Part shown: positions 10,534-60,792 of the stretch, piece by piece
How positions within the stretch are numbered: the first letter of the stretch is position 1
How the letters are laid out: each line of letters begins with the position of its first letter
From: Massilia sp. W12
Lineage (GTDB): Bacteria; Pseudomonadota; Gammaproteobacteria; Burkholderiales; Burkholderiaceae_D
DNA: 64,000 bases
Direction of reading: 5' to 3'
NCBI RefSeq assembly: GCF_037300705.1
Contig: NZ_CP147776.1
Coordinates: forward strand, 124,001-188,000
Program-made: the position numbers and the translations under genes
The notes under the pieces: model-generated
What the model was told of the DNA's origin: nothing
Seen by the model: the letters and a program-made list of their open reading frames with translations, nothing else
The model's database searches: none

Positions 10534-10544
10534 CAGGAGGCAGC

Positions 10545-12404: not shown

Positions 12405-12423
12405 GCGGCGCTAAAGGATAAAC

Positions 12424-26397: not shown

Positions 26398-26495
26398 GTC
26401 CGCGCCGGCGCAGCGCTGTTGCGCCGGCCCACCGCATAGCAAGCCTGGCGCGGCCACGTTGCGCCGCCGGGCATTAGAGAAAAGAGTGAGGAAGA

Positions 26496-27824: not shown

Positions 27825-27977
27825 ACGTCTGCCGGGCTTGGGAGACGCGCCGCGAAATTCAGCCGGGCGCAAATAGATTTTGCCGGCTTTGCAGCAGCTT
27901 GTTCCAAGTCTGACAGGTTTTTTGGTGGATCGCAGTGTTAACAGATAAAGCGCATGCAGCGCACAAGGTAGAACAAA

Positions 27978-29297: not shown

Positions 29298-29328
29298 GCC
29301 GCCCTCGCAACTGAGAAGCTGACGATCT

Positions 29329-32300: not shown

Positions 32301-32928
32301 GGTGCGTTCAGCCAGCCAGGAAGTGACGGCGGATGACTTTGGCCGCTTCTTTGCGCCGGGTGGTTTGATGGATGATTTCTTCCAGAAAAACCTGGCAGCG
32401 TATGTGAATCAGGGCGGCGCCACCTGGAGCTGGCGCCCGGTTGGCAATTCCGATCTGGGCATTCCGCCGCATGTGCTGGCGCAATTCCAGCGCGCCGCCA
32501 AGATCCGCGACGCCTTCTTCGGTCAGGGCGGCAAGCAGGCGTCCTGGCGCTTTGATTTGAATGTGCTGTCGGCTGATCCGGCCCTGCTCAAGCTGACTCT
32601 GGATATCGACGGCCAGCAATTGCAATACGCCGCCGGTACGCCAAGCCGCTCTGTGAATATTCAATTGCCGAGCGGCAAGGGAAATGGCGATGTGCGCTTC
32701 TTTGATGTCATGCCGGCTTTAAGCCGCGACATGCGCACCAGCGGAACCTGGGCCTGGATGCGCATGATGGATCAGGGACGTTTGGAGGCGAACGGCGGCA
32801 AAGAGCGCTTCAAACTCAGCTTTACTCTGGACGGCAAGCCGGTGGTGCTGGATGTGCGGGCATCGAGCGTGATCAATCCTTTTGAACGCAGCGTGCTGGA
32901 GCAATTCAGCTGCATGGATAAACTGTGA
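29329..32928 (+). CDS. tssM: T6SS membrane protein TssM (IcmF)
   Basis: A 1199-residue protein. Two N-terminal membrane helices (about 10-30 and 45-65) are followed by a cytoplasmic NTPase-like domain with an intact Walker A (GAPGTGKTT, residue ~138) and a third helix near 445-470. The large periplasmic region (about 480-1195) reaches the outer membrane via TssJ. IcmF-family length and order are normal. A Pro/Ala/Gly-rich insert near 870-905 interrupts the periplasmic part. The stop overlaps the tagF start by one base (TGATG). Confidence 0.95.
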   Translation: MKNFFAWFVKPPVLSFIGVLLLSLLIWFGGPQLGFGESHPMESETVRWVMIGIAFALWAGYFLWKWLQAKLANAQLMKSIAGEGEAAPAPGAQESAAEVAQLSKLMQEAMGTLKKSGKGKFGSQYMYQLPWYMFVGAPGTGKTTALTQSGLNFPLAESMGKRAIGGVGGTRNCDWWFTEEAVLLDTAGRYTTQDSYAEVDKAGWFGFLDLLKKHRRRRPINGVIVAVSAAELLTMTEQERKTQALAIRERIKELHDRLEIRFPIYVLVTKCDLLAGFIEFFDNLGRDERSQVWGTTFPVIDPQKVDDLLQAFPQEFRALEQQLQARVLSRVQAERDVQRRALIYSFPQQFAAVGENLNLFLHEVFQSTRYEERALLRGVYFSSGTQEGSPIDRVMGALAGAFGLDRQALPPGVNQGRSYFLTRLLTDVIFKEADLVGANLRFEKQRKQIFWGSCIALGLFLVVAMVSLGVSYKRNQDYIAQVQKQVDDLNAKIKQVPQSVGPLTLLPVLDDARKISGGYTDQKNKVETPLFSRFGLSQRPKLGDGAMSTYQRVLKQGMLPLVQARLEEELRKGSAANPDELYETLRVYLMLGDGKHFEAESIGAWIAFDWDRSLNGANENQKAALEGHIGALLESVKDDTPISLNKDLIEGTRLVLANMPLDQKVYNRVKRDLGAARLPEFSAQNAGGLQAPQVFARASGQPLTRGVPGVFTLAGYQKFDSLANTAVADVAKDSWVLDKQEDVGSPQKIEQLKKAVEKLYYDEYIKQWNTFLADVRIKPYSSLDEGARIMTILAGGESPLKKFIQAAAKETTVANADTGKAVADAAAGMFKGKIDAAKEKLKSAIGADPTAAPTPTVQQHPIDKEFERLRLMAGLNPAAAAAAAGAGGAPPPGGGAAPIDGTIAMMKELALYMSQANQAKLSGQPAPAGDILTRIKMEGEGKPEPLAGMLKNVDNATSGLTKGSERERINSLWSAGVAQFCRQAIAGRYPMVRSASQEVTADDFGRFFAPGGLMDDFFQKNLAAYVNQGGATWSWRPVGNSDLGIPPHVLAQFQRAAKIRDAFFGQGGKQASWRFDLNVLSADPALLKLTLDIDGQQLQYAAGTPSRSVNIQLPSGKGNGDVRFFDVMPALSRDMRTSGTWAWMRMMDQGRLEANGGKERFKLSFTLDGKPVVLDVRASSVINPFERSVLEQFSCMDKL

Positions 32929-33653
32929 TGGATAACGGATACGATAGCGCGCCGGGCTTTTACGGCAAAGTCACAACCCATGGCGATTTTGTCACGCGCC
33001 GCTTGCCGCGCGCTTTTATTGACGGCTGGGACGAATGGTTGCAAGCGGGTTTGCACTATGCGCGCCAGCGTTTGGGCGCGACCTGGCTGAATGCTTATCT
33101 CACCTCGCCGCTGTGGCGCTTTGCGATCAACGCCGGGGTGCTTGACCGCGCCGCCTGGAGCGGGGTGGTGATGCCCAGCGTTGACCGGGTCGGGCGGCAT
33201 TTTCCGCTGACAATTGCCTGTCCCGCTTTCGGGCAGCCGCGTTTGCTGGATTGGGTGCGTGAAGGCAATCCCTGGTTTGAGAATCTGGAGGATTTCGCGC
33301 TTTCCTCGCTGGCGGAAGGTTTTCAGCTGGAGAAAATGGAAGCGTCTTTGCAAGCCACGCCCGGCTTGACGCAGATGCTGGCGGCGCGCTTAGGCCCGCC
33401 GCGTCCGCCGGTTGGCAGCGCGACTTGCATGGCGTTTGGCAGCATGCAGCAACTGCTGCAAGCGCAAAACAATCTGGTGCAAGACTTGGCCAGCCAGGCC
33501 CTGCAAGGGGCCACGGTATGGTGGACGGAAGGCTCAGACCGCATCAAACCCTGTATGCTGATCAGTCGCGGCATGCCGACGCCGCAACAATGCTGCGCCA
33601 TGATGGATGGCAATTGGAGCGGCGGCGGCTGGGTGTATCAGGAATTGGGTTGA
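32928..33653 (+). CDS. tagF: T6SS regulatory protein TagF
   Basis: A 241-residue protein. The N-terminal PGFYGKVTTHGDFVTRRLP and WSGVVMPSVDRVGRHFPLTI are signatures of the TagF/ImpM domain, which represses T6SS assembly post-translationally in Pseudomonas. ATG 32928 overlaps the tssM stop; an in-frame GTG one codon earlier is possible. It is the last T6SS gene of the group. With TagH it suggests post-translational control even though kinase and phosphatase genes are absent here. Confidence 0.9.
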   Translation: MDNGYDSAPGFYGKVTTHGDFVTRRLPRAFIDGWDEWLQAGLHYARQRLGATWLNAYLTSPLWRFAINAGVLDRAAWSGVVMPSVDRVGRHFPLTIACPAFGQPRLLDWVREGNPWFENLEDFALSSLAEGFQLEKMEASLQATPGLTQMLAARLGPPRPPVGSATCMAFGSMQQLLQAQNNLVQDLASQALQGATVWWTEGSDRIKPCMLISRGMPTPQQCCAMMDGNWSGGGWVYQELG

Positions 33654-40928: not shown

Positions 40929-40957
40929 TTGCATGCCGGCAATCCCTGTGTTATATT
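40929..40957 (+). promoter_or_regulatory. Candidate sigma70 promoter for the PNGase A-like gene
   Basis: TTGCAT (40929-40934), a 17-base spacer, then TATATT (40952-40957). The -10 is one base off consensus and the -35 is weak. It lies 104 bases before the start. The rest of 40740-41061 holds nothing clear. Confidence 0.4.
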
Positions 40958-41061
40958 CCACACACTTTCTGTCTGATTCCGGTTCGCAACCTTGTTTGCG
41001 CAATGCCCGCCGAATCCAGACCCGTTTCACTTCCCCCCTATTTCCCTCCCGAGGTTGTTTG

Positions 41062-42786
41062 ATGTTTTCTCCCCTGCTGCGCGCTGTCGCTTGCTCTTCT
41101 CTGTTGGCTCTGATGCTATGGGCTTGTGGCGGTGTGACGCCGCCGAATGAATTGCAATTGCTGCCGGCTGCCGGATTTGAAACGGGATCAATGAATGTGG
41201 CCAGCGCCGATGCGCCCTTGCCGCGACCGGCTGCGCAGCCGTGTGTGGTGGATTTGTATGCGGATAAGGAATTCCGCGATTTTTCTTCCAGCAGTTTTAA
41301 ATACAACCCGGTTTGCCCCGGCCCCTGGGCCAAAGTGATTTTGCAGGCCGATTTTGCGGTGAATGCAGGCCGCCAGTTTGACCGCACCGGCCATATCTCG
41401 CTCGGTGGCGTCAATCTGTACACCGGCACAACGCAAGAACCTTCGGCGGCGAATGCGGCCAGCTGGCGGATTGAGCGCGATGTCACCGATTACTCGCGCC
41501 TGTTTGCGCAAAGCCAGGAAGGCGCGGTTGACTTGGATAATCTGGTCAACGAAACCTATACCGGCGTATTGCGCGGCAGCGCGCGCCTGCTGTTTTATCC
41601 GCACGAAGGCGACAGCATAGCGCCGCGCAGCGCGGATATGGTGATTGCCCTGACCGACCGCAAAGATGGCCGCCCGCTGCAATTAAAACAGGGCGCACCC
41701 GAATATAAGCACACGCTGCAATTGCCGCGCAATAATTTGCGCGCCTATCTGGATGTGATTGCGCAGGGGCAGGCCGATGATGAATTCTGGTACGCCTGCG
41801 CCCCGGATGATCTCGCGGAAACTTTACAAACCTGTCCCGGTGGTGGCTTGCGTCAAGTGCAAGTGCTGTTGGATGACAAGCCGGTCGGGCTGGCCCCGAT
41901 CATGCCCTGGATGTTCACCGGCGGCATCAGCCCGCGTCTGTGGCGGCCGATTCCCGGCATTCATGCCCTGAACTTCCAGCCCTTCCGCCTTGACCTGTCT
42001 CCCTTGGTGGGGATTTTGAATGATGGCCGGCCACACACGCTGGCTTTACGGGTGCAGAATGTGCGCCATTATTTCAATTTGAGCGCCAATCTTTTGCTGT
42101 ATCGTGATGCGCAAAGCGAGAGTATTCCGGGCCGCCTGCTGGAAAACACCCTGAGCGCACCGCAACAGCAGCTGCGCAAGCAGGCGCAGGGCGACACCCT
42201 GAGCGAATTGCAGGTGAGCAGCGATAACAGCTATGTGTTGCGGGGTGAAATCCATACCGCGCGCGGTCGGGAGTTGTTGGAGGTGGAGCAGAAAATGCGT
42301 TTTTCGAATCTGCAAAAATATGCAGGCGCACTGCAAGTGTTTGACCAGGGCAGCACGCTGGAAACCAGCTCACGCGTCAGCACGGCATACGCCAGCAGCC
42401 GCTTGCAGCGCAGCTACAGCATGCCGCTGTGGCTCAGTCATCGCGATGAAAATGGTTTGCTGGATATCCGTATGAAGTTGGGCTTGCATGCAGTCAACCG
42501 CTTGAGCTGGCAGGATAATTTGAGTTGGGGCAGCCAGACCACGCATGAACTGGAAACCACCGTGGCGCGCACTGTCCCCGGCGCCAGTTTGAGCAGCAAG
42601 GCTTGGCATCGGCTTGAACAGCGGGATACGCGCGGCGCCTGTTTTGCGCGTCTGGTGAATGCGCAGGACGCCAAATTGCAAAGCGCACAGGATGAAAGCG
42701 CTTGTCGCCAGCCTGTGCAAGACAAGCCCTGGGGCATTCAGCCTTTGGAGTGGGGCGATTTGTGGCTGGCTTTGATCAATCAATAA
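41062..42786 (+). CDS. PNGase A-like lipoprotein (peptide N-glycosidase A family)
   Basis: A 574-residue protein. The lipoprotein signal (LLALMLWAC, lipobox LWAC, Cys near residue 20) implies membrane anchoring. The region ILQADFAVNAGRQFDRTGHI, then LGGVNLYTGTTQEP, DVTDYSRLF and NETYTGVLRGSARLLFYP follows the conserved pattern of the peptide-N4-(N-acetyl-beta-glucosaminyl)asparagine amidase A family. These enzymes cut N-glycans from Asn and are best known in plants, fungi and a few bacteria. Expected role: deglycosylation of eukaryotic glycoproteins (inference). GAGG seven bases before ATG 41062 fixes the start. The stop is two bases from the next start. Confidence 0.8.
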   Translation: MFSPLLRAVACSSLLALMLWACGGVTPPNELQLLPAAGFETGSMNVASADAPLPRPAAQPCVVDLYADKEFRDFSSSSFKYNPVCPGPWAKVILQADFAVNAGRQFDRTGHISLGGVNLYTGTTQEPSAANAASWRIERDVTDYSRLFAQSQEGAVDLDNLVNETYTGVLRGSARLLFYPHEGDSIAPRSADMVIALTDRKDGRPLQLKQGAPEYKHTLQLPRNNLRAYLDVIAQGQADDEFWYACAPDDLAETLQTCPGGGLRQVQVLLDDKPVGLAPIMPWMFTGGISPRLWRPIPGIHALNFQPFRLDLSPLVGILNDGRPHTLALRVQNVRHYFNLSANLLLYRDAQSESIPGRLLENTLSAPQQQLRKQAQGDTLSELQVSSDNSYVLRGEIHTARGRELLEVEQKMRFSNLQKYAGALQVFDQGSTLETSSRVSTAYASSRLQRSYSMPLWLSHRDENGLLDIRMKLGLHAVNRLSWQDNLSWGSQTTHELETTVARTVPGASLSSKAWHRLEQRDTRGACFARLVNAQDAKLQSAQDESACRQPVQDKPWGIQPLEWGDLWLALINQ

Positions 42787-47984: not shown

Positions 47985-48010
47985 GACTTATCAGCCCATT
48001 GGAGGTCAGC

Positions 48011-51000
48011 ATGCCTGCTTCAGTCACACATCGTGCCGCGCCGCAATTTTTGATCGCCAACCTGCACCGCATCACGCCCGATCATTTATATAAGCGCACG
48101 CTTCTGGCCAGCCTGCTGGCCGCCTCCTTGAGTGCGGCCTACGCCAACCCGCAATTACCGCAGGTGGTGTACGGGCAAGTCAATATCAATCAGCAAGGCA
48201 AGGTGATGCAAATCACCAATTCGCCTAACGCCATCATCGACTGGCAAAGTTTTTCGATTGCCGCCGGCGAAACCACCCGTTTTATTCAGCAAAGCGCGAA
48301 CAGCGCGGTGCTCAACCGTGTGCGCGGGGTGGATCCTTCGCAGATTTTCGGCGCCTTGCAATCGAATGGGCGGGTGTTTTTGCTGAATCCGAACGGGATT
48401 TTATTCGGCCCCTCGGCCAAGGTCGATGTGCACAGCCTGGTCGCATCCAGCCTGCCGATGGCGAATGAAGATTTCCTGCGCGGCAAATGGCAATTTGGCG
48501 ACGGCAAGACGCATGGCGGCAAGGTGATCAACGCCGGCCAGATCAATAGCGGGGCCGGCGGGCAGGTGATGTTGATTGCGCCGCAGGTGGAAAACAGCGG
48601 CATCATCACCTCACAACGCGGCGAAGTGATGTTGGCGGCAGGCCACTCGGTGCAATTGGTGGATGCGAACAACCCGGATATGCATGTGGTGGTCTCGGCC
48701 CCCGCGCACCAGGCCCTGAACCTGGGTGAAATCGTGGCGAATGCCGGCAAGATCGGGATTTACGGCGCACTGGTCAAGCAGCAGGGCAGAGTGCTGGCCG
48801 ATTCGGCCCAGCTCGACGCCAGCGGCAAGGTGGTGTTCAAGTCCAGCCGCAGCACGGAACTGGGGGCCAACAGCGTGACCAGCGTGCGCAGCGTGGGCAA
48901 CGGCGGCACGCTGATGGCGCTCGGGCCGCAAGTCGATATGCAAGGCGCGGCCATGATTGACGCCAGCGGCGCGACGGGCGGCGGCACAGTTCTGTTGGGC
49001 GGCGATTTTCAGGGTAAAAATCCGCAGATTCCAAACGCGCAGCAGACCACGGTGGCCAAAGATGCGCAGATTCTGGCCAAGGCAGAGCAAAGCGGCGTCG
49101 GCGGCCGCATCATCGCCTGGAGCGATGGCAGCACCAACTTCCAGGGGATGGCGGACGCTTCCGGGGTGGCCCAGGGCGGCCTGGTGGAAACATCCGGCAA
49201 ACAGCATTTATTCATTGGCGCCGGCAAGGTGCGCGCCACTGGCGCCAAGGCTGGCGTATGGCTGCTCGATCCCTCGGATATCACAGTGCGCCATGGCAGC
49301 ACAAATTCTTTGTCCGGCGGGGTGTTCGATCCATCCGCTCCCAGCACCATTGGCGATACCGAAATCAATGCGGTGCTTGATGGCGGCACCGATGTGGTGT
49401 TGCAAACATCCAGCGGTACGGGCGGGACAGGCATTATCAAAATTGAAGGCTCGGCCAGTGAAAATGGTGCGGTAAGCATCAAAAACAGCAGCAGCGGCAA
49501 ACGTTCGCTGAGTTTGATCACCAGCGGCGATATCTCGCTTGATTATGGCGCCAGCATTCTGGGGACGGACGCCAATGCGCTGGATGTGAATTTCAACACC
49601 AGCGGCAAAATCACCCTGGCCGGTCAGATGAATTTGGCCAATGGCAAGCTCACTCTGAGCAATGACGCCAGCCTCAGCGGCTTGATAAAAAACAGCACGC
49701 TCTCAAGCAGCAAGCTGATCACCGGCAGCAATGGCACATTGCAGGATGTGACCTTGGATGGCAGTGCCGAATTGGGCGGTTCCCTGTTTGTCGCCGGCAA
49801 TTTGAATTTTGCCGATCAGGCCGCGATCAAGCAAAGCGGCTATTTGTATTTCACCGATGGCGCGACGCAAACTTTAGACAGCAGCGGCAACGCCAGTTTG
49901 ACCCTGAGTGGCGGTACGCTGGTCGGCGGCTATCAAGTCAGCGGTCAAACCATCAAGCTCGGCAGCGGTTTGCTGTTGCAGGGACATGGCTCGGTATCTG
50001 AATCAAATGGCGCGGCGCTTGAAAATCATGGCAGCATCATTGCCAATGACAGCGGACAGGCGCTGTTTATCAATCTGAGCAAGATAGATAATCAGGGCGG
50101 CTTGATGAAGGCCAATACCGGCGGCCTGATGACCTTGACCACCGCCAATTGGAGTAACAGCGGCACGCTGTTGGTGAATTCCGCATCAACCATGAATCTG
50201 AATTTGCAGACCAGCACCAGCACGCTGGGCGGCATTACAAATAATGGCGGCACGCTGAATTGGAGCGGCGTGTTGGATAACAGCGCAAACACCTTGGAAT
50301 TGGGCACGGGCGGGGTATTTGGCGCAGGCGGCTTGAGCAATCTGGAAGGCACAATCAAAGGCGGCGAAATCAAATCCGGCGATGGCAGCAAGCTGCACAG
50401 CGGCAGCGGCGGCTATCTGGATGATGTGACCATCGTCGGCACGCTGCCGATCTCCGGCAGCATCAATGTGAAAAACGGGCTGACTCTGGCGGACGGCGCT
50501 TTGCTTAACGTCGGCGCGGCAACGCTGAGTATGTATGGCAGCGGCAGTTTTTCCATCAGCACACCCGGGCAGGGGGAAATCCGCTTGGGCGGCGGCAGTT
50601 TCGCGCTGGGCGCATCCGCCACCGGCCAGAGCGTGACGCTGGAAAACGGAATCAGCCTGACCGGCTATGGCACAAGCTATGACAATGCGCCTTCCACCCT
50701 GTTGAATAAAGGCTTGATCAGCGCCAATCACAGCGGCCAGAATCTGACCCTCTTTAATAAGAATCTGCACAATTATGGCGGTACGCTGCAAGCCGCTGGC
50801 GGGGCTTTGACCTTGCAGACCGGGACATACGCCAGCACTGGCGGCAAATTTGATGTCAGCAGCGGGCAAATGATTCTGCACACGCCGCTGACCACCTCGG
50901 ATTTGAATGGCGCGTTCAGCCGCAGCGGCGGCAAAGTGGTGCTGGCCGGCACATTGGACAACAGCAGCGATACCTTGGATATCAGCAGCAGCGGGCCGTT

Positions 51001-54000
51001 TGGAACGGGCGGGCTGGATGAATTGAGCGGCACAATTCAGGGCGGTACGGTGAGCAGCGGCAGCGGCCATTCGCTGCAATCCAGCGGCGCTATGGATGGC
51101 GTCACCCTGGCCGGCGAATTGAGTATGAGCGGCACGCTGAGCATTAAAAACAGCTTGCAATTGGCGAATGGCGCGAAACTCAATCTGGGCGCCGGCAGTT
51201 TGTATTTTGTCAGCAGCGGGACGCAGCAATTGAGCAGCAGCGGCAACGCTGAAGTGGTGTTGGGCGGCGGCACGATTTTGGCGGGGTATGGCGTCACTGC
51301 CCAGCAATTGCAAATCGACCCTGGCGTCACCTTGTCCGGCCATGGCGTATTGGGGAATAGCGATAAGGCCGACATCCTGCATTCCGGCACAATCAACGCC
51401 AATGTCAGCGGCGAAACCTTGCTGATCAATCCGCACAGCTTCGCCAACAGCGGCACGTTGGAAGTAAATGACGGCACGCTGACCCTGCAAAGCACGAACT
51501 GGTCAAATTTCGGTACGCTGAAATTGGCATCCGGGCAATTGAATCTGAATTTGCACACCACTACCGCCGATCTGGGTTCGCTGACCCGCAGCGGCGGCAC
51601 GGTGGTGCTGGGCGGTAAGCTGGATAATAGTGGTGCGACGCTGGACACCAGCGCCAGCGGCCCCTTCGGCGCGGGTGGTTTGAATCACATCAACGGCGAT
51701 ATCAGCGGCGGTACGATCAGCGGCGATGGCAAGAATACGGTGCAAATCAGCGGCGCCACTTTTGATGGCGTGACCCTGGCCGGCACATTGAATGTGAGCG
51801 GCAGTTTTGGCGTGAAAAACGACTTGCAGATGGATGATGGCGCACGGCTTGAGCTGGGTTCCGCCACCATCGGCTTTCTCAGCGGCGGCGCGCAGTTATT
51901 AGGCGGCTCCGGCAATGGCGAAATCGTGCTGGGCGGCGGTTCCCTGATAGCCGGTTATGGCGTGAGCGGGCAAACCTTGCAGATTGGCCCCAACACCAAA
52001 ATCAGCGGCCATGGCTATATCACGCAAAGCAATGCTGCCACGGTGGAAAATTACGGTCACATCAGCGCGGACGTCAGCACGCATAATCTCGTGCTCAATC
52101 CGGACACCTTGATCAATAACGGCAAAATCAGTGCGGCAGGCGGCAATTTGCATTTGCAGGCTGGCAGCGTGAGCAATAGCGGCACGTTAGACGCCAGCGA
52201 CGGCAAATTGCAACTGAGTTATAACACCACCACCGCAGCTTTGGGGACGATTGCGCACAGTGGCGGCGTGATCCACTTTGACGGCGAGTTGAATAACAGC
52301 GGCGCAGAGCTGGATATTGGCGGCGGCGGCAATTTTGGCGCGCTCGGACTGGATTCTTTCAGCGGCCTGATCAGCGGCGGTACGCTCAAATCCGGCGATG
52401 GCAAAGCCATGCCGAGTCAGGGCGGGCAATTGGATGGCGTCAATATTGCCGGCAAGTTCACCCTGGGCGGCAATTTGCTGGTGAAAAATCTGAGCTTGGA
52501 AAGCGGCAGCGTGCTGGAGCTTGGCAGCCATGCCTTACTCTTTAATGGCAGCGGCTTGCAAACCCTGGGCAGCAATGGCAGCGCAGAAGTCACGCTGGAT
52601 GGCGGCTATTTGCAAGCCGGTCATGGCGTCAACGGGCAAACTTTGGCTATCAGCAGCGGGGTGCGCGTGTATGGTCATGGCGACGTCACGGAGAATTTCT
52701 CCGCCACCTTGCAAAATCAGGGGGTGATCGAAGCCAATGCGAGTGGCAAGCAACTCAGTATCAGCGTCACTAAGCTGGAAAACAGCGGTACACTCAAAGC
52801 CGATGGCGGCGCCTTGCTGATTAATCAAACCCAATGGACAAACAGCGGCACTCTGGAACTCAACAGCGGCGCCATGCATCTCGATATTGACACCACGACC
52901 GCCGGACTTGGTGCGATTACGCATACGGACGGCAAGTTGGTATATGTCGGCACACTGGATAATTCCGGCGCCACGCTGGATATCGGCGCGCATGGGCACT
53001 TTGGCGCCAAAGGCTTGACTCAGCTTGATGGCAAGATCAAAAACGGCAATGTGCAGAGCAGCGGCGGCATCGCGCTGAGCGGCTCGAATGGCCGTTTGGA
53101 TGGGGTGCAGCTGACGGGCGATGTGAAATTGGACGGATATTTGCTCATCGATAATGGTTTGTCCCTGGCCGATGGCGTGAATCTGGAATTAAATGGCGCA
53201 TCGCTGTATATCAATGGCGGCGGGACGCAAACCATCAGCAGCAGCGGCAATGCGCAAGTGCATTTGCAAGGCGGGATTGTCTATGCTGGCGGCGATCAAA
53301 GCGGCCAGACTTTGCAAATCGGCGCTGGCGTGACATTGCGCGGACAAGGATCGATTTTGCAAAGCCAGGCCGCCACCTTGCAAAACAAGGGCGAGATCCT
53401 GGCGGATGACAATATGCTGACGATCAGCGGGCTTGCGCTGGATAACCAGGGCACGCTGAAAGCCAATGGCGGCACATTGTTTTTGCAACCATCTGCATGG
53501 AGTAATGCGGGCCTGCTGCAAATCAGCAGCGGCGAAGCGCAATTGCATGTTGACGCCAAAACGGCTGACTTGGGCAATGTCAGCAATAGCGGCGGTGTGG
53601 TGAGTTTTTACGGCAAACTGGATAACAGCAGCGACACATTGAGCGTTGGCCTGAGCGGCAAAATCACGACGCTGTATGGCGAAGTCAAAGGCGGCGCCAT
53701 TGAGGCGGCTGACAGCAGCGTGTTTGACCTGCAAGGCGCAACCCTGGATGGCGTCACCATCACCGGCGAGTTGCACAGCAGCGGCTCAGCCATTATCAAA
53801 AATAACCTCACCCTGGCCGATCAGGCGCATTGGAAGCTGGGCGACAGTTTTTTAAATTTCCATGGCAGCGGGACACAGCACATCGCCAGCGCCGGCAACG
53901 CCACCCTGAGCGGCGGCAAAGATTTGCAAAACAGCGGCACGAATGCGCATGTGGTGGCGGGTTATGGCAGCGCCGGCCAGACCCTGGCGATTGGCAAGGG

Positions 54001-57000
54001 CATTACTTTGCGCGGCGGCTGGTATCTGGAACACAGCAACAACGCCAGCATTCTGAACGCCGGCGTGTTGCACAATGAAGGCGCAAGCTCTTACCTGCAG
54101 GCCAGCGATGTGCAAAACAGCGGCACGATCAAGGTCAGCAACGGCGTCTTGTATTTGAATGGCATGAGCGCAAACGCCGGCGCCGTGGAAATCGGCGATG
54201 GCGCCACGCTGCATGCAGCGGCCGCGAATATCAGCAATACCGGGTTGATACGGGGCAGCGGCGAGCTGTATCTGGGCAGCGGCACATTGAGCAATGCCGG
54301 CCAGATTCAACCAGGTGACGCAAGCAATGCCGGCACGCTCAAAATCGATGGGCATTTCACCCAGAATGCCGGCGGCGCCCTGAAAATCCGGGTCATATCG
54401 GACGCCAATCAATACGACAAACTGAGCGTGGCCGGCGATCTGACGCTGGATGGGACTCTGGAGCTGGAGACGCTCGGCGGATATGTCCCGGCCAAAGGCG
54501 ATGCATATCAATTCCTGAGCTATCAAAGCAAACTCAATGGCGATTTTGCCACGCTCGCGGCGCCCGATTTCAGCGGCGCCACACTGGATAAGGCCACAGC
54601 CGGCCAGATCTGGTTCAAGATGCCGCCCGCCAGCCTGATCAATATCTGGACTTTTGACGGCGACGGCAATTGGAGCGATAGCAGTAAATGGAGCTTGGGT
54701 CATGTCCCGGCCAGTGATGAAACCGTGCAATTGCCGGATTACAGCAGCCAGTACACCGTGACTCTGGATAATGGCGTGAATAACGTTAAGAGCCTGGTCC
54801 TGCTTGGCAATGACAAGCTGGCGATTAATGGCGGCAGCCTGACCCTGAATCAGAATTCATCAGCAAATCTGGGCGGCTGGCTGGGCCTGGGCGGCGGTTT
54901 ATTGAGCAGTCTGGGCGATCTGGATTTAAGCTTTTTGAATCTGAGCAATGGCGCACTGGATATCGCCAGCGGCAAACTGCTGACGGTGGCGCACTACAGC
55001 CAGAGCGGCGGCACGCTGTCCGGCCCTGGCATGGTCAAAGTGACAGACAGCTGGCTGCGCAGCAGCGGCGTGCTGAATAGTCTGGGCGGCCTTTCCATCA
55101 CGCAGCAAAGCGGCGCACTGACGCCGGGCAGCATCAGCGGCAATATGCCGCTGCACTTGCAAACCATGGCCGGCGATATTCAAATCAGCTCACCGATCAG
55201 TATTAATGGCGCGCGCGTCAAATTGCAAGCCGGCGGCGGTGCGATTACCGGCGCAGCGCAAATCAGCGCGCCGGAATTGGTGCTGCAAGCCGCTCATGGC
55301 ATTGGCGACCCGGATAATCTGATGAATCTGGCAGTCGATAAATTGCAAGCTGCCGGCGGCGAGAACGGCGGCATTTTCATCAAAAACGCCGGCAATTTGA
55401 AGATAGTTGATATGGAAAGCCGGGGCTTGGCGATCCAGGCCGATGGCGCCAGCGGCCCGAATTGGGATAGTAAGAGTCTGGTGCTGGATGTCAGCGGATT
55501 TGATGTGCAGATTGACGGCAAGGTGATGGGTAAAGATCAGATGCTGCTGAAAGCCGCCAATCTGGATTTTGCCAATCATGCCAATGCGGTATTGCATACC
55601 AGCAATGGCGACATCAAAATTGCCGCCGGCAAGCTGAATCTGCCTGCCGCCGCCACCATCAGCCAGGGCGCTGGCGTGAACATGCAATTGCAGTTGGATC
55701 ATCTCGATCTGCAAGGCACGATAGACAGCGGGACACAGTCTTGGCTGACCATCGCGCCGCTCTCGTCGAATCAAAGCATGCTGATTTCAAATACGCATGA
55801 CAATGGCAAGTTGAGTTTGCTGCCGGCGGATTTCAGCCACATTCAGAGCAAACGCCTCGATTTGGGCGACATTGACCACGCCCTGCATGTTGACGCCAGC
55901 GTGAGTCTGCCGAATAGCAGTTTGTTTTTGTACGGCAGCCATTTAAGTTTGGGGCCGTCCGGCGCCTTACCGTATGCAGATGTGCGGATGGAAGGCGGCA
56001 AGATTGATTTATCCCAAGCGACAGCTGCCAGCATCGGGCAGAGCGGCGGCAAGGTTCTCATGACCGCCGATCAAATTGAGGCGAATGGCTTCAAAGCGAT
56101 TGTCAGCGGCCAGAGCATTGTCGGCTTTAAGAGCTATAACAAAGCGACGCAAATCGTTTCCAGCATCAGCAATAACGGTGAATTGGAATTGCTGAACGCC
56201 GATTTGGCCGCCTTGCAAACCGATGTATTGGCGTTAGACGCCTATAACAAACCGTTGAATTTCAATGCGGCGCTGGATTTGCGCAGCAGTGCAGGCAAAT
56301 TGACCTTGTATGGAAGCTGTTTTGGCAAAACGCATTGCGGTGAAATCACCCAGATGAGCAATGCGCCGATCATGGTGGACGAACTGTATTTGCAGGGCAA
56401 TACCGGACTGAATTTGCCGGCGCCAAACCTGATTGGCAAAGTGTCCGGCACGGTCAGCCCGGGCGGCTCGAATTTCGATCCTGTTCCAGCCACGCATTTC
56501 ATCCGCAACGCGCAAAATCTTGAGCTGTTGAACCTGAACATGCAGCAGCCGTTCGGGCTTGAGTTGAGCAATGGCGGCAAACTCAATCTCAGCGGCACAT
56601 TGGCCATGAACCAGCAGCCGCTGTCGCTGGTGGCGGATGAGATGAGTTTCGCGGGACAAGTCACCAACGCCGCCATGATTCAACTGGCGCCCGACAGTGC
56701 GCGCCCGCTCACGCTGGGCAGCAGCGTCTGCGTGCAAGCGCCTTGTCTGGCCTTGGATCAGCTTGACCATCTGCACACTGAAAAACTGATGCTGGGTAAA
56801 ACCGGCCATTTGCCCAGCGCGCTGGCCTTGAGTTCCAATACCGATACCGTCTTGCTGCCTTCCGAGTTGCAATATTTATGGCTGCGCAGCAGCGGAGCGG
56901 TGACGCAAAGCGCCAAATTGAATGTCACCTATCTGGCGCTGCAGGCGGATGGCGCGGTGAATCTGCCGCTGGATAATGCGGTGTCCCATGTGGCGGCGGC

Positions 57001-59548
57001 AGGCGCCGGCGATTTGAGCCTGAAATCGATTAGCGGATTGGCTCTTGGCAGCGCGCCGGCGCATGCGGATATGAGCGCCTTGAGCGGCATTGTGCGCAAC
57101 GGCGATATTTATTTGCACAGCGGCGGCAGCCTGGATGTCAGCAGCCCATTGCAGGCGCTGGGCGGCCACCAGCTGCGCTTGCAAGCGGGCGGCGCGATCA
57201 GCAATGGTTCGGCCAATTTGCAAGCGGCGAGTCTGGATCTTGAGGCGAACGGTGGCATTCAATTATTAAGCAATGTCAATGCGGTCAAAGCTGTGAACAG
57301 CGGCAGCGGCGATATCGTCTTGAACAATACCGGCGTGCTGAGCGTGGGCGATGTCACGCAAAACAGCAGCGCTAACATTCAGATTGATAATATCGGCGCG
57401 CTGACGGTGAATGGCAAGGTGAGCAGCACGACCGGCAACATCAGCCTGGTGGCGCATTCGCCGCTGACGGTGAACGGCAGCGTGATTTCCAGCAACGGCG
57501 GTGCGCTGCTGCTGGAAGCCGGCAAGAGCAATAGCATCAGCGATGTGCTGCAAATCAACAGCGGGGCGTCGGTCAGTTCCAGCGGTGCGGTGAATTTGCT
57601 GGCGGGCGATGCGATTGTGGTGCAGTCTGGCGCCAGCCTCAGTCCGCAGGCGGTCTTGAATTCGTATCAAAACGGCGGCCCGCCCAGCGTCAACGATTGC
57701 ATGGCCACGCCGCAGCGTATCGGTTGCAGCGCAATTCTGCCGGATATCAACACTTGCACCGCCAATCCGGCCACCCTGGGTTGCAGCGTTGTGTTGCCAT
57801 CGCTTAACAGCTGTATTGTCAATCCGAATGCCGCCGGCTGCAGCGTGGTCTTGCCCAGCATGCAAACCTGCCAGACCAACCCCAGTGCGCCGGGCTGCAG
57901 CGTGGTGCTGCCGAATCTGGACACTTGCCAGGCCACGCCGAGCGCGCCGGGTTGCAATGTGGTGTTGCCAAATCTGGCCACTTGTATGGCCAATCCAGCC
58001 GCAGCGGGCTGCTCGGTGGTGTTGCCGAATCTGGCGACTTGCCAGGCGGCCCCCGCCACCCCTGGCTGCAGCGTGATTTTGCCTTCGCTGGCAAGCTGTA
58101 TCGCCAATCCGGCCACCGCCGGTTGCAGCGCCGTATTGCCGACGATGGCGGCCTGCCTGAGCGCGCCGGCAACGCCGGGTTGCAGCGTGGTGCTGCCGAA
58201 TATCGATACCTGTCAGGCCAATCCAAGCGCGCCCGGTTGCAATGTGGTGTTGCCGAATCTGGACAGCTGTATCGCCAATCCTGCCGCGCCTGGTTGTAAT
58301 GTGGTGCTGCCGAATCTGGCCAGTTGCATGGCGAACCCGGCAACCCCGGGATGCTCAGTGATTCTGCCCAACTTGACCAGCTGCATCGCCAACCCTGCCA
58401 CCGCCGGCTGCAGTGTGGTGCTGCCGAATCTGGCGGCCTGTATCGCCACGCCCAGCTTGCCGGGGTGCAGCGCGGTTCTGCCGGACATGCAAAATTGCAT
58501 GGCCAATCCGGCAGCGCCGGGTTGCAATGTGGTGTTGCCGTCTTTGGCGGCATGTATAGCAAGTCCGAGCGCGCCGGGCTGCAGCGCTGTGCTGCCGGGT
58601 CTGGAAGCCTGTCTGGCCAATCCGGCCACGCCGGGATGCAGCGTGCAGCTGCCCAGCCTGGCCAGCTGCATCAGCAATCCGGCGACAATGGGCTGTTCTG
58701 CCGTATTGCCGACCTTGTCGGCTTGCATCAGCAATCCTGCCACGCCGGGTTGCAATGTGATTCTGCCCAGCCTGGCCAGTTGCGCCGCCAATCCGGCCAC
58801 CCCTGGCTGCAGCGCAGTGTTGCCGGCGCTGACGGCGTGCATGAGCAATCCGGCGCTGCCGGGCTGCTCGGTGGTGCTGCCGAATTTGTCAGCATGCATC
58901 AGCAATCCGGCCACGCCGGGCTGCAGCAGCGTGTTGCCAAGCCTGGCGACGTGCATTGTTTCGCCCGGCGCCGCCGGTTGCAGCGCAGTCTTGCCGAGTT
59001 TGGCCGAATGCAGCGCCAATCCAAGCTTGCCTGGTTGCAGCGCAGTCGTGCCGCAAATTGATCAGTGTCTGAGCAATCCGGCTTCTTGTGTCAGCGGCGG
59101 CGGCACGGGTGGAACAAATAATTCCAGCAGCGCGGAAGAGTTGCGCGATGCCTTGAACAACACAGTGAATCTGACCAGCCAGCAAAGCAAGCCGGCCACC
59201 ACGGTATTGGCCAGCAATCTGAGCAAGCCTGAAATCAGCAATCCAAGCAGCAATAACGGCAGCGCCGCCGCCAATAACAGCGGCAGCAACAACAGCGGCG
59301 CAGCAGGCGGCCGCACGCCGCCGGCCAATGACAGCGCCAGCAAGCCAGGCGATGGCAAGGCTGCAGAGAATAAGAGCGGTGAGCAGCCGGCTGATAACAA
59401 GCCCGCCGACGCCAAGAGCGGCGACAGCAAGAGCAGCGACAGCAAAGATGAAGGCAGCAAGAAAGAAGAAAGCAGCAAAGAAAACAAGAAGGAAGAAAAC
59501 AAAGAAGTGAAAAAAGAAGAACCGGCGCGCAAGCTGTATTGCAATTGA
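48011..59548 (+). CDS. Giant two-partner secretion exoprotein with cysteine-repeat stalk
   Basis: A 3845-residue secreted protein. The signal region ends near SAAYA-NPQL. The TPS domain (about 40-300) is nearly identical to that of the previous gene. Then come about six repeats of ~222 residues (about 550-2100), each with motifs like LDNSGATLD, FGAGGL and SGTL, and a further beta-helix region (2100-3200). Twenty-four 19-residue repeats of the form C-x8-C-x9 (about 3230-3685) follow, then a Ser/Asn/Gly linker and a Lys/Glu-rich tail ending LYCN. It should be a long fibre exported by a TpsB pore and is probably an adhesin. GGAGG five bases before ATG 48011 fixes the start; it is 139 bases after the first TPS gene. 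Confidence 0.88.
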   Translation: MPASVTHRAAPQFLIANLHRITPDHLYKRTLLASLLAASLSAAYANPQLPQVVYGQVNINQQGKVMQITNSPNAIIDWQSFSIAAGETTRFIQQSANSAVLNRVRGVDPSQIFGALQSNGRVFLLNPNGILFGPSAKVDVHSLVASSLPMANEDFLRGKWQFGDGKTHGGKVINAGQINSGAGGQVMLIAPQVENSGIITSQRGEVMLAAGHSVQLVDANNPDMHVVVSAPAHQALNLGEIVANAGKIGIYGALVKQQGRVLADSAQLDASGKVVFKSSRSTELGANSVTSVRSVGNGGTLMALGPQVDMQGAAMIDASGATGGGTVLLGGDFQGKNPQIPNAQQTTVAKDAQILAKAEQSGVGGRIIAWSDGSTNFQGMADASGVAQGGLVETSGKQHLFIGAGKVRATGAKAGVWLLDPSDITVRHGSTNSLSGGVFDPSAPSTIGDTEINAVLDGGTDVVLQTSSGTGGTGIIKIEGSASENGAVSIKNSSSGKRSLSLITSGDISLDYGASILGTDANALDVNFNTSGKITLAGQMNLANGKLTLSNDASLSGLIKNSTLSSSKLITGSNGTLQDVTLDGSAELGGSLFVAGNLNFADQAAIKQSGYLYFTDGATQTLDSSGNASLTLSGGTLVGGYQVSGQTIKLGSGLLLQGHGSVSESNGAALENHGSIIANDSGQALFINLSKIDNQGGLMKANTGGLMTLTTANWSNSGTLLVNSASTMNLNLQTSTSTLGGITNNGGTLNWSGVLDNSANTLELGTGGVFGAGGLSNLEGTIKGGEIKSGDGSKLHSGSGGYLDDVTIVGTLPISGSINVKNGLTLADGALLNVGAATLSMYGSGSFSISTPGQGEIRLGGGSFALGASATGQSVTLENGISLTGYGTSYDNAPSTLLNKGLISANHSGQNLTLFNKNLHNYGGTLQAAGGALTLQTGTYASTGGKFDVSSGQMILHTPLTTSDLNGAFSRSGGKVVLAGTLDNSSDTLDISSSGPFGTGGLDELSGTIQGGTVSSGSGHSLQSSGAMDGVTLAGELSMSGTLSIKNSLQLANGAKLNLGAGSLYFVSSGTQQLSSSGNAEVVLGGGTILAGYGVTAQQLQIDPGVTLSGHGVLGNSDKADILHSGTINANVSGETLLINPHSFANSGTLEVNDGTLTLQSTNWSNFGTLKLASGQLNLNLHTTTADLGSLTRSGGTVVLGGKLDNSGATLDTSASGPFGAGGLNHINGDISGGTISGDGKNTVQISGATFDGVTLAGTLNVSGSFGVKNDLQMDDGARLELGSATIGFLSGGAQLLGGSGNGEIVLGGGSLIAGYGVSGQTLQIGPNTKISGHGYITQSNAATVENYGHISADVSTHNLVLNPDTLINNGKISAAGGNLHLQAGSVSNSGTLDASDGKLQLSYNTTTAALGTIAHSGGVIHFDGELNNSGAELDIGGGGNFGALGLDSFSGLISGGTLKSGDGKAMPSQGGQLDGVNIAGKFTLGGNLLVKNLSLESGSVLELGSHALLFNGSGLQTLGSNGSAEVTLDGGYLQAGHGVNGQTLAISSGVRVYGHGDVTENFSATLQNQGVIEANASGKQLSISVTKLENSGTLKADGGALLINQTQWTNSGTLELNSGAMHLDIDTTTAGLGAITHTDGKLVYVGTLDNSGATLDIGAHGHFGAKGLTQLDGKIKNGNVQSSGGIALSGSNGRLDGVQLTGDVKLDGYLLIDNGLSLADGVNLELNGASLYINGGGTQTISSSGNAQVHLQGGIVYAGGDQSGQTLQIGAGVTLRGQGSILQSQAATLQNKGEILADDNMLTISGLALDNQGTLKANGGTLFLQPSAWSNAGLLQISSGEAQLHVDAKTADLGNVSNSGGVVSFYGKLDNSSDTLSVGLSGKITTLYGEVKGGAIEAADSSVFDLQGATLDGVTITGELHSSGSAIIKNNLTLADQAHWKLGDSFLNFHGSGTQHIASAGNATLSGGKDLQNSGTNAHVVAGYGSAGQTLAIGKGITLRGGWYLEHSNNASILNAGVLHNEGASSYLQASDVQNSGTIKVSNGVLYLNGMSANAGAVEIGDGATLHAAAANISNTGLIRGSGELYLGSGTLSNAGQIQPGDASNAGTLKIDGHFTQNAGGALKIRVISDANQYDKLSVAGDLTLDGTLELETLGGYVPAKGDAYQFLSYQSKLNGDFATLAAPDFSGATLDKATAGQIWFKMPPASLINIWTFDGDGNWSDSSKWSLGHVPASDETVQLPDYSSQYTVTLDNGVNNVKSLVLLGNDKLAINGGSLTLNQNSSANLGGWLGLGGGLLSSLGDLDLSFLNLSNGALDIASGKLLTVAHYSQSGGTLSGPGMVKVTDSWLRSSGVLNSLGGLSITQQSGALTPGSISGNMPLHLQTMAGDIQISSPISINGARVKLQAGGGAITGAAQISAPELVLQAAHGIGDPDNLMNLAVDKLQAAGGENGGIFIKNAGNLKIVDMESRGLAIQADGASGPNWDSKSLVLDVSGFDVQIDGKVMGKDQMLLKAANLDFANHANAVLHTSNGDIKIAAGKLNLPAAATISQGAGVNMQLQLDHLDLQGTIDSGTQSWLTIAPLSSNQSMLISNTHDNGKLSLLPADFSHIQSKRLDLGDIDHALHVDASVSLPNSSLFLYGSHLSLGPSGALPYADVRMEGGKIDLSQATAASIGQSGGKVLMTADQIEANGFKAIVSGQSIVGFKSYNKATQIVSSISNNGELELLNADLAALQTDVLALDAYNKPLNFNAALDLRSSAGKLTLYGSCFGKTHCGEITQMSNAPIMVDELYLQGNTGLNLPAPNLIGKVSGTVSPGGSNFDPVPATHFIRNAQNLELLNLNMQQPFGLELSNGGKLNLSGTLAMNQQPLSLVADEMSFAGQVTNAAMIQLAPDSARPLTLGSSVCVQAPCLALDQLDHLHTEKLMLGKTGHLPSALALSSNTDTVLLPSELQYLWLRSSGAVTQSAKLNVTYLALQADGAVNLPLDNAVSHVAAAGAGDLSLKSISGLALGSAPAHADMSALSGIVRNGDIYLHSGGSLDVSSPLQALGGHQLRLQAGGAISNGSANLQAASLDLEANGGIQLLSNVNAVKAVNSGSGDIVLNNTGVLSVGDVTQNSSANIQIDNIGALTVNGKVSSTTGNISLVAHSPLTVNGSVISSNGGALLLEAGKSNSISDVLQINSGASVSSSGAVNLLAGDAIVVQSGASLSPQAVLNSYQNGGPPSVNDCMATPQRIGCSAILPDINTCTANPATLGCSVVLPSLNSCIVNPNAAGCSVVLPSMQTCQTNPSAPGCSVVLPNLDTCQATPSAPGCNVVLPNLATCMANPAAAGCSVVLPNLATCQAAPATPGCSVILPSLASCIANPATAGCSAVLPTMAACLSAPATPGCSVVLPNIDTCQANPSAPGCNVVLPNLDSCIANPAAPGCNVVLPNLASCMANPATPGCSVILPNLTSCIANPATAGCSVVLPNLAACIATPSLPGCSAVLPDMQNCMANPAAPGCNVVLPSLAACIASPSAPGCSAVLPGLEACLANPATPGCSVQLPSLASCISNPATMGCSAVLPTLSACISNPATPGCNVILPSLASCAANPATPGCSAVLPALTACMSNPALPGCSVVLPNLSACISNPATPGCSSVLPSLATCIVSPGAAGCSAVLPSLAECSANPSLPGCSAVVPQIDQCLSNPASCVSGGGTGGTNNSSSAEELRDALNNTVNLTSQQSKPATTVLASNLSKPEISNPSSNNGSAAANNSGSNNSGAAGGRTPPANDSASKPGDGKAAENKSGEQPADNKPADAKSGDSKSSDSKDEGSKKEESSKENKKEENKEVKKEEPARKLYCN
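48201..49110 (+). repeat. Long direct repeat, copy 2 (TPS domain DNA)
   Basis: Partner of 43931-44840 at an offset of 4270 bases. Similarity falls abruptly after the codons for LAKAEQSGVGG, where the passengers diverge. Confidence 0.85.
50230..53700 (+). repeat. Six in-frame ~670-base repeats in the exoprotein
   Basis: The LDNS-type motif (LDNSANTLEL, LDNSSDTLDI, LDNSGATLDT, LNNSGAELDI, LDNSGATLDI, LDNSSDTLSV) recurs near 50275, 50957, 51625, 52290, 52960 and 53620. The period is about 660-682 bases, i.e. ~222 residues. Each unit carries the same ordered blocks (FGAGGL, GGT.SG, DGV.LAG, LADGA, VSGQTLQIG). These are beta-helix building units. Confidence 0.8.
57698..59065 (+). repeat. Tandem array of 24 x 57-base cysteine-rich repeats
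   Basis: The unit encodes C-x-x-N-P-x-x-x-G-C-S/N-V-V-L-P-x-L-x-x (19 residues). Cysteine 1 of the first unit is codon 57698 and of the twenty-fifth, partial unit codon 59066. That is 1368 bases, exactly 24 x 57, so no unit has an insertion or deletion although the sequences vary. Forty-eight cysteines are spaced 9 and 10 apart, suggesting a disulfide ladder. Confidence 0.92.
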
Positions 59549-59907
59549 TGATGTTTTTTGCTTCAGGCCTGCCGGCAGCTCTGCGGCCGGCTTGAGTTGC
59601 GCGTGGGCAAAACAAAATGGCCAAGCGGCAAGCGCCATCGCGGGTGTTTCGCAGTCAGCTTGGCAACCTTGACGCGTGAGCGCCGGTTTCATTTTGTTCT
59701 TGGCCGGGGGGAGCGCCGTTTTGCAGTCCGCTGTCCGGCTTGATTGCCATTCAGCCTATCGCATACCCCATGCCGGGGATAGCATTGGACTGCCAGCGCA
59801 GTCTTCTCATGCGGGATGTGCAAACGTGCAAAGACGCCTTGCAAATCCTCCCATTCTTGCGAACAGCCGGGTGCGGCGCATCAAATTTCTCATATCCGCA
59901 TAGCTGT
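59549..59907. other. Intergenic region without a clear feature
   Basis: These 359 bases follow the giant gene. Short GCCGGC inverted repeats at 59571-59591 have no T-tract. I see no gene or convincing terminator. Confidence 0.4.
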
Positions 59908-60792
59908 TCACATATTGAAACGCTGCGCTATCCAGTCTAAAAAAACACGCGTTTTGGCGCTCATCAAACGCCGTCCGGGAAATACCGCCCACACATCCAC
60001 CTTCGGCATAGACCATTCCGGTAGAATGCGTTGCAAGGGTTGGCCGCGCAATTGCGCCGCCATGAAATCTGAACCAAAGGCAATGCCAAGTCCTGCAATG
60101 GCTAAGCGCATTAAGATTTCCGGTGAGTTCGCCAGCACCTTGGGCTTGATTGCACTTTCCCAGACTTCGGCGCCCTTTTGTAAGCGCAGCAGCGGCGTTT
60201 CATCGCTGCGTATCGGTATGCAAAGCATGTCATATTGCGGCAGTTGGGAAGGATGCAGAATCGGGCCGTGGCGCGCAATCCATTCGGGCGCGGCGTACAA
60301 GCCGGGTTCCAAGGTCGCCAGACGCCGCGCCGCCAGGCTGGCTTCATCGCGCAACTCGCCCATGCGCAAGGCCAAATCAAAATTTTCCGCAATTAAATCC
60401 ACCCGGCGCGGCGATAAATCCAGTTCCAATACGATGTGCGGATAGCGTTGCACAAAATCCGCCAACATCGGCGCCATCACCAGATTGGCGAAATCACCCG
60501 GCATCGAAATACGCAATTTGCCGGATGGCTCCGCCTGGCGGTGTTGCGCCAGCGCCGCCACCGCCTCGGTCTGCTCCAATACCACACGGGCATGCTCCAG
60601 CACCGCATGACCGGTTTCGGTCAAGGTCAGATGGCGCGTAGTGCGCTGCAGCAGCCGCTCACCGACCGCGCCTTCCAGCTGCGTAATGCGGCGCGACAAG
60701 GTGGATTTGGGCAGGCCGACCCGCTGCGCCGCCGCACTGAAGCTGCCGGCCTCCACCACACGGGCAAACAAGAGCAAATCATTGGCTTGCAT
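59908..60792 (-). CDS. LysR family transcriptional regulator
   Basis: A 294-residue protein. The N-terminal winged HTH (LLLFARVVEAGSFSAAAQRV then STLSRRITQLE) is followed by the substrate-binding domain (about 90-290). The CrgA/PP-type set (RTTRHLTLTETG) resembles regulators of quinone or electrophile responses. It is divergent from azoR-doxX, the usual LysR arrangement, so it probably controls that unit in response to a small effector. Confidence 0.9.
   Translation of the reverse strand: MQANDLLLFARVVEAGSFSAAAQRVGLPKSTLSRRITQLEGAVGERLLQRTTRHLTLTETGHAVLEHARVVLEQTEAVAALAQHRQAEPSGKLRISMPGDFANLVMAPMLADFVQRYPHIVLELDLSPRRVDLIAENFDLALRMGELRDEASLAARRLATLEPGLYAAPEWIARHGPILHPSQLPQYDMLCIPIRSDETPLLRLQKGAEVWESAIKPKVLANSPEILMRLAIAGLGIAFGSDFMAAQLRGQPLQRILPEWSMPKVDVWAVFPGRRLMSAKTRVFLDWIAQRFNM

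Follow-up and report, generated by a model that had tools for sequence, protein, structure and literature searches.

A conserved pair of terminal cysteines suggests that a two-partner secretion exoprotein with a cysteine-repeat array may be tethered to a separately encoded FecR-domain protein in Massilia and its relatives

Exoproteins of two-partner secretion (TPS, type Vb) systems may remain attached after export by means of C-terminal cysteines. This has been described for the HMW1-type exoproteins (PMC5422565, PMC13192263), and in the accessible text of these reviews the accounts differ between a disulfide loop that locks the end of the chain in the TpsB pore and a disulfide that tethers the exoprotein to TpsB. 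The TPS adhesin CdrA of Pseudomonas aeruginosa, the partner of CdrB, is held by a cysteine hook, with its C-terminal anchor in the pore or the periplasm (PMC11898600, PMC7616799). The TPS anchors described in the accessible parts of these papers lie within the exoprotein chain. In RTX adhesins, a retention domain folds internally, after which it no longer fits through the channel because of its size (PMC12077191); the first description of an anchoring domain of this kind was from Marinomonas primoryensis (PMC13090378). Whether an adhesin is held or released decides biofilm formation. Here we analyse P0001, a TPS exoprotein (TpsA) of 3849 amino acids encoded on a 64,000-nucleotide stretch of the Massilia sp. 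W12 genome (contig NZ_CP147776.1, positions 124,001 to 188,000; hereafter the window, whose own numbering is used). The protein carries 24 tandem cysteine units and ends in a further cysteine, and most of its relatives are encoded beside a FecR-domain protein that also ends in a cysteine.

The system resembles HMW1 and HMW2 of Haemophilus influenzae, and HxuA, in that these TPS exoproteins are kept via a C-terminal cysteine at the TpsB pore; it differs from them since there the exoprotein's own disulfide-closed domain is locked in TpsB (PMC5422565, PMC13192263), whereas here a lone cysteine, a separate partner and 0 to 52 loops would be involved. For CdrA and CdrB, neither a repeated array nor a FecR-type partner is mentioned in the accessible parts of the two papers cited above. 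With the RTX retention domain (LapA, Marinomonas) the FecR-domain protein appears to share the fold of its first domain and, possibly, a size that prevents passage through the pore (PMC12077191, PMC13090378). The RTX domain, however, is the N-terminal part of the adhesin chain and belongs to type I secretion, while we are dealing with a separate protein and a type Vb system. In the PUMA3 system of P. aeruginosa, a sigma-factor regulator that has been compared to FecR, VreR, is genetically tied to a tpsA/tpsB pair, but it acts on transcription and no terminal-cysteine link is described in the accessible text (PMC2729926). In our search of the open-access literature, no FecR-domain protein disulfide-linked to a TPS exoprotein was named and no paper combined 'FecR domain-containing protein' with 'two-partner secretion'.

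We propose, with somewhat better than even confidence, that a disulfide holds the exoprotein to a separately encoded FecR-domain protein acting as a retention plug, and that the array forms a stalk of closed loops. The two conserved cysteines at the ends of these neighbouring gene products are, in our view, a more valuable result than the array itself. A separately encoded plug attached by one disulfide, if true, would be a further solution for TPS anchoring, open to redox control in the periplasm, and would explain what one class of secreted FecR-domain proteins does.

The following observations concern the FecR-domain protein. When named genomes were scanned with an alignment of these proteins, 440 relatives were obtained, and the 80 best were kept; the titles of these loci are mostly from Oxalobacteraceae (Duganella, Massilia, Pseudoduganella, Rugamonas, Noviherbaspirillum, Undibacterium, Janthinobacterium and Telluria). 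The FecR match lies in its own frame in all 80 loci, that is, it is not part of the adhesin chain, and all 80 proteins end in C-x-V-R. This cysteine is the sole mature cysteine in 78 of them, the other two having an extra cysteine ahead of the signal-peptide core, and it is invariant in the 73 rows that were aligned. The PF04773 FecR domain scored over the cut-off in all four operon FecR proteins scanned. Most of the aligned FecR open reading frames (ORFs) begin with a short hydrophobic segment immediately ahead of the domain, which leaves little room for a cytoplasmic sigma-binding part; some frames are longer.

As to the exoproteins beside FecR, YCN or FCN terminates 59 of the 62 analysed TpsA ORFs. 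Two of the remaining three (L098 and L140) are fragments, another frame of the locus ending in YCN, and the third (L143) is probably frame-shifted, with no YCN seen. Seven of 69 TPS ORFs had been missed by the start motif and left out of this census, and all seven end in YCN. The number of mature cysteines is odd in 57 of the 59 proteins with this ending. Among the 11 intact TpsA proteins that have no unit, and hence no C-x8-C hook pair of that kind, the terminal cysteine is the only mature cysteine in nine, over a length of 1100–2370 residues. The two genes are also close together. At the locus of the window's paralogue (L020), the order is cyclase (CHASE2 + Guanylate_cyc), tpsB, tpsA and fecR on one strand, and a FecR-domain gene adjoins the exoprotein gene in 17 of 18 array loci (L020 included, the window excluded; in L068, among the 17, the FecR gene is cut off by masked letters). 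The position of fecR varies: it mostly follows tpsA, but lies between tpsB and tpsA in L072 and after tpsB in loci like L084.

The array, on the other hand, is not a constant feature. Arrays of C-x8-C-x9 units, which the earlier note on this DNA had proposed to look for in other TPS proteins, were found, related proteins of one bacterial family having 0 to 52 units ahead of a charged tail that finishes in YCN. Of the array genes, the first 19 whose ends were read, that of the window among them, contain 12 to 52 units, and every one ends in YCN. Among the 62 analysed ORFs beside FecR, 14 have no unit (11 intact, three fragments or probably frame-shifted), 21 have one and 27 have 4 to 50. The best TpsB tree (57 rows) implies five gains or losses of the array, two of which are forced by well-supported branches. 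We also surveyed genome samples with one array query and E values up to 1e-8, which may miss degenerate arrays: arrays were present in 39 of 294 genomes of the window's family, in 3 of 399 of the order (all three from the same family) and in 1 of 398 of the phylum. The window's own genome is counted in each sample and is the sole match in the phylum. A first scan of genome contigs with the array as query gave no relative. As TpsA proteins without units exist while both terminal cysteines are kept, the array is an optional part of these proteins and the lone terminal cysteine with the FecR-domain partner is constant.

This bears on the alternative that the array is itself the anchor, an amplified hook of the HMW1 or CdrA type whose loops form in the periplasm and block the TpsB pore, the YCN cysteine being secondary. 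The precedents named above, a C-terminal disulfide in HMW1-type proteins (PMC5422565, PMC13192263) and a cysteine hook in CdrA (PMC11898600, PMC7616799), are in its favour, as is the export block that a disulfide-closed helical hairpin caused in another type V passenger (PMC5802855, as far as its accessible text goes); the single-unit relatives also resemble one hook, 75–103 residues from the end. However, the units are dispensable while the terminal cysteines of both proteins are kept, and one hook should suffice, so that up to 52 would go unexplained. We therefore consider this alternative unlikely.

We then looked across families of the order, with profiles for TPS, TpsB and FecR derived from the 80 named loci, most of which are from Oxalobacteraceae, so that distant TPS genes may be missed. 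In a FecR-first set, 40 loci (39 with closed ORFs, one open) from other families, plus one of the window's own among them, were hand-picked from a ranked list and are not a random sample. A terminal cysteine (in the last six residues) was present in 32 of the 39 FecR relatives; 24 of these 32 have a TPS or TpsB match nearby and a further six have a large same-strand neighbour ending in cysteine. The seven without a C-terminal cysteine had no TPS or TpsB match in the examined region (Fisher p 4e-4). In these other-family loci, 15 of 17 closed TPS ORFs end in cysteine within three residues and the other two look frame-broken. Conservation here is confined to the cysteines, the tail sequences being different (KKC, LPVCR and RSCN against ECTID and ECVVQ), which suggests a function. 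A TPS-first sample gave 86 TPS matches in 90 genomes; after exclusion of four from the window's genome and eight short or broken frames, 15 of the remaining 74 were open, in a misread frame or too short, which left 59 usable. The terminal cysteine (in the last three residues) was found in all 10 FecR-adjacent exoproteins versus 8 of 49 non-adjacent ones (p 7e-7), although these p-values overstate independence, because the ten FecR-adjacent exoproteins all belong to a single clade. Four of the eight non-adjacent, cysteine-ending proteins share this TPS clade with them; three of their genomes have a FecR protein with a terminal cysteine elsewhere (L206, L217 and L224), as in the window's genome, and the fourth (G028) has a FecR relative.

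It could be argued that the two terminal cysteines act separately, in FecR and TpsA homodimers or in other mixed disulfides, with no bond between TpsA and FecR. A lone periplasmic cysteine would also fit a homodimer, and the hetero-pairing is deduced rather than seen. But both cysteines occur together in adjacent genes; FecR proteins without a terminal cysteine make up 7 of 15 loci lacking a TPS match and none of the 24 with one; and 41 of the 49 TPS proteins not beside FecR have no terminal cysteine. Another candidate partner was TpsB, which in the array operons has an invariant C-x9-C near its C-terminus, probably in a loop (16 of 16 aligned; for example, L020:12230-13969). This candidate was rejected: the TpsB ORFs of L201 and L205 have no cysteine at all while their TpsA keep the terminal one, and TpsB is therefore an unlikely partner of YCN. 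Separate action of the two cysteines thus appears quite unlikely to us.

The FecR-domain protein of the paralogue's locus was modelled with AlphaFold2 (73 rows). The model has a mean predicted local distance difference test score (pLDDT) of 79.5, with two confident beta domains and a loose linker; the terminal cysteine lies on a C-terminal tail mostly below 50. Residues 3–100 matched 5ix9, 'Cell surface anchoring domain', with Z 9.4 and a root-mean-square deviation of 2.0 over 75 of 76 residues, and the rows after it fall below Z 5. A sequence profile of the partner also found 5ix9 (E 0.007). We take this entry to be the RTX anchoring domain of Marinomonas on the strength of its title and of 'Antifreeze protein' as its molecule name. 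According to the model, the first domain of the FecR partner is thus folded like the anchoring domain of RTX adhesins.

P0001 is encoded by an ORF at 47999–59548 (+ strand, first ATG at 48011) and was recognized as a TPS exoprotein by PF05860 (E 2.7e-29; 103 bits against a cut-off of 33.5) and TIGR01901. Its N-terminus is hydrophobic by eye, and the TPS secretion domain occupies residues 60–272 (48176–48814). As the earlier note had it, the array at 57698–59065 is exactly 24 x 57 bases without an indel; it is in frame with the ORF and comprises residues 3234–3689. Tandem Repeats Finder gave a 57-base period with higher-order periods of 114, 171 and 285. The note's alternation of cysteines 9 and 10 residues apart holds for all 24 units (C-x8-C-x9); it fails in a shortened 25th pair, C-x6-C, directly after them (59066–59089; residues 3690 and 3697, ∼150 residues from the end), and in some relatives, where the spacing between units is 11–13. 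A 149-residue tail follows (59090–59536), rich in Ser, Asn and Gly and then in Lys, Glu and Asp, and the protein ends in YCN (59537–59545). Of its 55 cysteines, 50 are inside the array block, and two close pairs further upstream (residues 2774/2780 and 2911/2916) account for another four; the only one outside close pairs is residue 3848, that of YCN. The 209-amino-acid ORF downstream (59816–60445) had no Pfam match.

The length of the P0001 unit is exact, as had been noted, but its sequence does not simply drift. Codon positions 1, 2 and 3 differ between units at 33, 28 and 52%, the third being the most variable, and the pooled ratio of non-synonymous to synonymous substitution rates (dN/dS) over unit pairs is ∼0.28, a simple pairwise estimate that is not tree-based; the array is therefore under purifying selection. 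The consensus of 469 units from the named relatives is C-x-A-x-P-x-x-x-G-C-S-x-V-L-P-x-L-x-x. P15 is conserved at 100%, L14 at 99%, G9 at 94% and P5 at 93%, while the 100% of C1 and C10 is forced by the search pattern. No Pfam or NCBIfam model covers the repeat unit in searches of these collections. AlphaFold2 on eight units (66 aligned rows) gave an ordered repeat and not the disorder that would have spoken against a regular structure (pLDDT 92.8, predicted template modelling score 0.71), which supports the idea of selection for a regular and probably disulfide-bonded structure near the C-terminus. The predicted helices are at repeat positions 10–13 and 17–22 (4 and 6 residues), and the second extends into the next unit. 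Foldseek and VIA found no match of this model in the PDB, which does not show that the fold is new. The twin CX9C (CHCH) fold, a helical hairpin with two C-x9-C motifs, also has cysteines about ten residues apart. Kinship with it was rejected: the only support was a weak profile match to mrp10 (E 0.019), and the array differs in alternating 9 and 10 throughout and in having helices of 4 and 6 residues.

How the cysteines pair is suggested by a comparison of 32 array stretches, some of them cut by contig or locus ends. The spacing within units is 9, except in one L049 unit with a lost cysteine and in the short last pair of P0001, while that between units is 10 and at times 11–13. Complete arrays are made up of whole cysteine pairs, and among the analysed TpsA ORFs all 27 array proteins have every cysteine except the last in close pairs. 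The 21 one-unit proteins have three cysteines (four proteins), five (16) or six (one). As the in-unit spacing is constant and the between-unit spacing variable, arrays consist of whole pairs and single units exist, we favour a C1–C10 bond inside each unit, forming small closed loops. The earlier note had instead suggested a disulfide-laddered stalk, which would mean bonds from one unit to the next in a stalk outside the cell that is either released or held in some other way. The regular AlphaFold2 repeat and the strict register in the window would suit it, but it is the spacing between units that varies, complete arrays consist of whole pairs, and single units exist; this version now looks very unlikely. 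That the array is a neutral tandem repeat, growing and shrinking without a specific structural role, is barely credible, since its copy number of 0 to 52, the five changes on the TpsB tree and the higher-order duplications are countered by the low dN/dS, by conservation of P15, L14, G9 and P5 at 93–100% and by 24 units without an indel. Our best reading, from the cysteine pattern, is that the array is a disulfide-closed stalk of variable length.

The proposed tether would work as follows. P0001 would be threaded out through a TpsB pore, probably that of the TpsB encoded ∼2.8 Mb away beside the 23-unit paralogue, and its charged C-terminal tail would remain in the pore with the end in the periplasm. 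There the cysteine of YCN, the last-but-one residue, would join the lone C-terminal cysteine of the FecR protein in an interchain disulfide. The FecR protein would fold in the periplasm, be too bulky to pass the pore and thus serve as a retention plug in trans. The 24 units between the main body and the tail would form a chain of C1–C10-closed loops, a stiff, length-adjustable spacer or stalk near the membrane. In closed relatives at least 62 residues separate the last array cysteine from the terminal one, enough to span the pore, which would allow the array to form a stalk just outside it.

A number of observations weigh against this tether. No disulfide has been observed; the bonds, the location, the retention and the in-trans pairing of the orphan P0001 are all deduced from sequence features, from how well these are conserved and from gene order. 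The FecR model is matched better by anti-sigma regulator domains (PupR 6ovk Z 15.7, 4m0n 15.1 and 4m0h 15.0) than by the anchoring domain. A periplasmic location of the array is a live rival to the external stalk, because a disulfide-closed hairpin blocked export of a type V passenger in the accessible account (PMC5802855). The array gene of L064 has neither TpsB nor FecR beside it. The odd cysteine count is broken by L103 and L116, and by the paralogue (L020), which has 48 cysteines, one of them stray. Neither TpsB nor FecR was found in the window, which leaves P0001 an orphan, and its neighbour P0002 has no terminal cysteine, although the TPS domains of the two proteins are 88% identical. 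In the FecR-first set, L214 and L215 have a FecR protein with a terminal cysteine and neither a TPS match nor a large cysteine-ending neighbour. In the TPS-domain tree, in which 4 of 27 rows had no domain under the profile, all 10 FecR-linked rows lie in one supported clade of 14, and all 14 have the terminal cysteine; an independent-pairs test of FecR adjacency against the terminal cysteine had no power. The association of the two features is largely that of one TPS clade.

The proposed tether may also have a signalling side. The cyclase gene of the CHASE2 type is present in 49 of the 80 loci, and lies directly upstream of tpsB in 26 of the 50 with at least 2.6 kb of upstream sequence. In L209, the one tested, a Crp-type regulator of the cyclic-nucleotide-monophosphate-binding kind is encoded between tpsB and fecR, and genes of similar size precede fecR in L206, L211, L213, L214 and L217. 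A FecR-domain protein next to CHASE2 is also known from the BiofilmReg operon of Burkholderia, where a secreted FecR-domain protein stands beside a CHASE2 sensor; here CHASE2 belongs to a cyclase, whereas there a LysM-FecR protein goes with a histidine kinase and no TPS gene is named in the accessible text (PMC5192318). The upstream cyclase, the Crp-type regulator in the cluster and this precedent make a link to cyclic AMP (cAMP) possible. The FecR protein might then be both plug and transmitter: it would lock the last cysteine and touch the sensor of the CHASE2 cyclase, so that pulling or releasing the exoprotein alters cAMP, with the array setting the length or the stiffness of the stalk. 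We regard this extension as tentative and on the doubtful side. A GAF and HD (HD_5) protein adjoining the CHASE2 cyclase (L020:16369-18219, − strand) is possibly a further second-messenger enzyme. Two genes of 778–788 amino acids downstream of fecR in other families are FtsK and were taken as unrelated.

The window's genome has four TPS matches, and both of its array genes end in YCN. The second, a frame of 2177 amino acids with 23 units, is the paralogue ∼2.8 Mb away. Of two PF03865 (TpsB) matches in the genome, one lies beside this paralogue, where the partners of the orphan P0001 are thus probably to be found. The only other FecR match, a 465-amino-acid frame, has no terminal cysteine, and the frame reaching the end of a 6779-amino-acid TPS gene finishes in SAPQR. 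P0002 (43750–47871, + strand), an orphan TpsA without an array, ends in QARYK; P0001 and P0002 have TPS domains that are 88% identical but share little at their C-termini, as though only the N-terminal portion had been copied. Just upstream of these two genes, a protein with a PNGase A (peptide N-glycanase) domain is encoded at 40933–42786 (+ strand; E 1.3e-58).

Other secretion genes were also seen in the window. Four consecutive genes at 9139–16555 (+ strand) encode an efflux protein of the outer membrane (PF02321), two HlyD-type proteins, of which one has GAF domains and the other a weak PqqD match, and a 708-amino-acid SecA-like protein that contains SecA_DEAD and preprotein cross-linking domains; it is unusual for a SecA-type motor to be paired with a type I-like export apparatus. 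Two adjacent trypsin-like proteins of 398 amino acids (18945–20141 and 20533–21729, − strand) are probably a tandem duplication. Type VI secretion genes, for an FHA protein, VasE, DotU-OmpA, IcmF and TagF, occupy 24199–33653 (+ strand).

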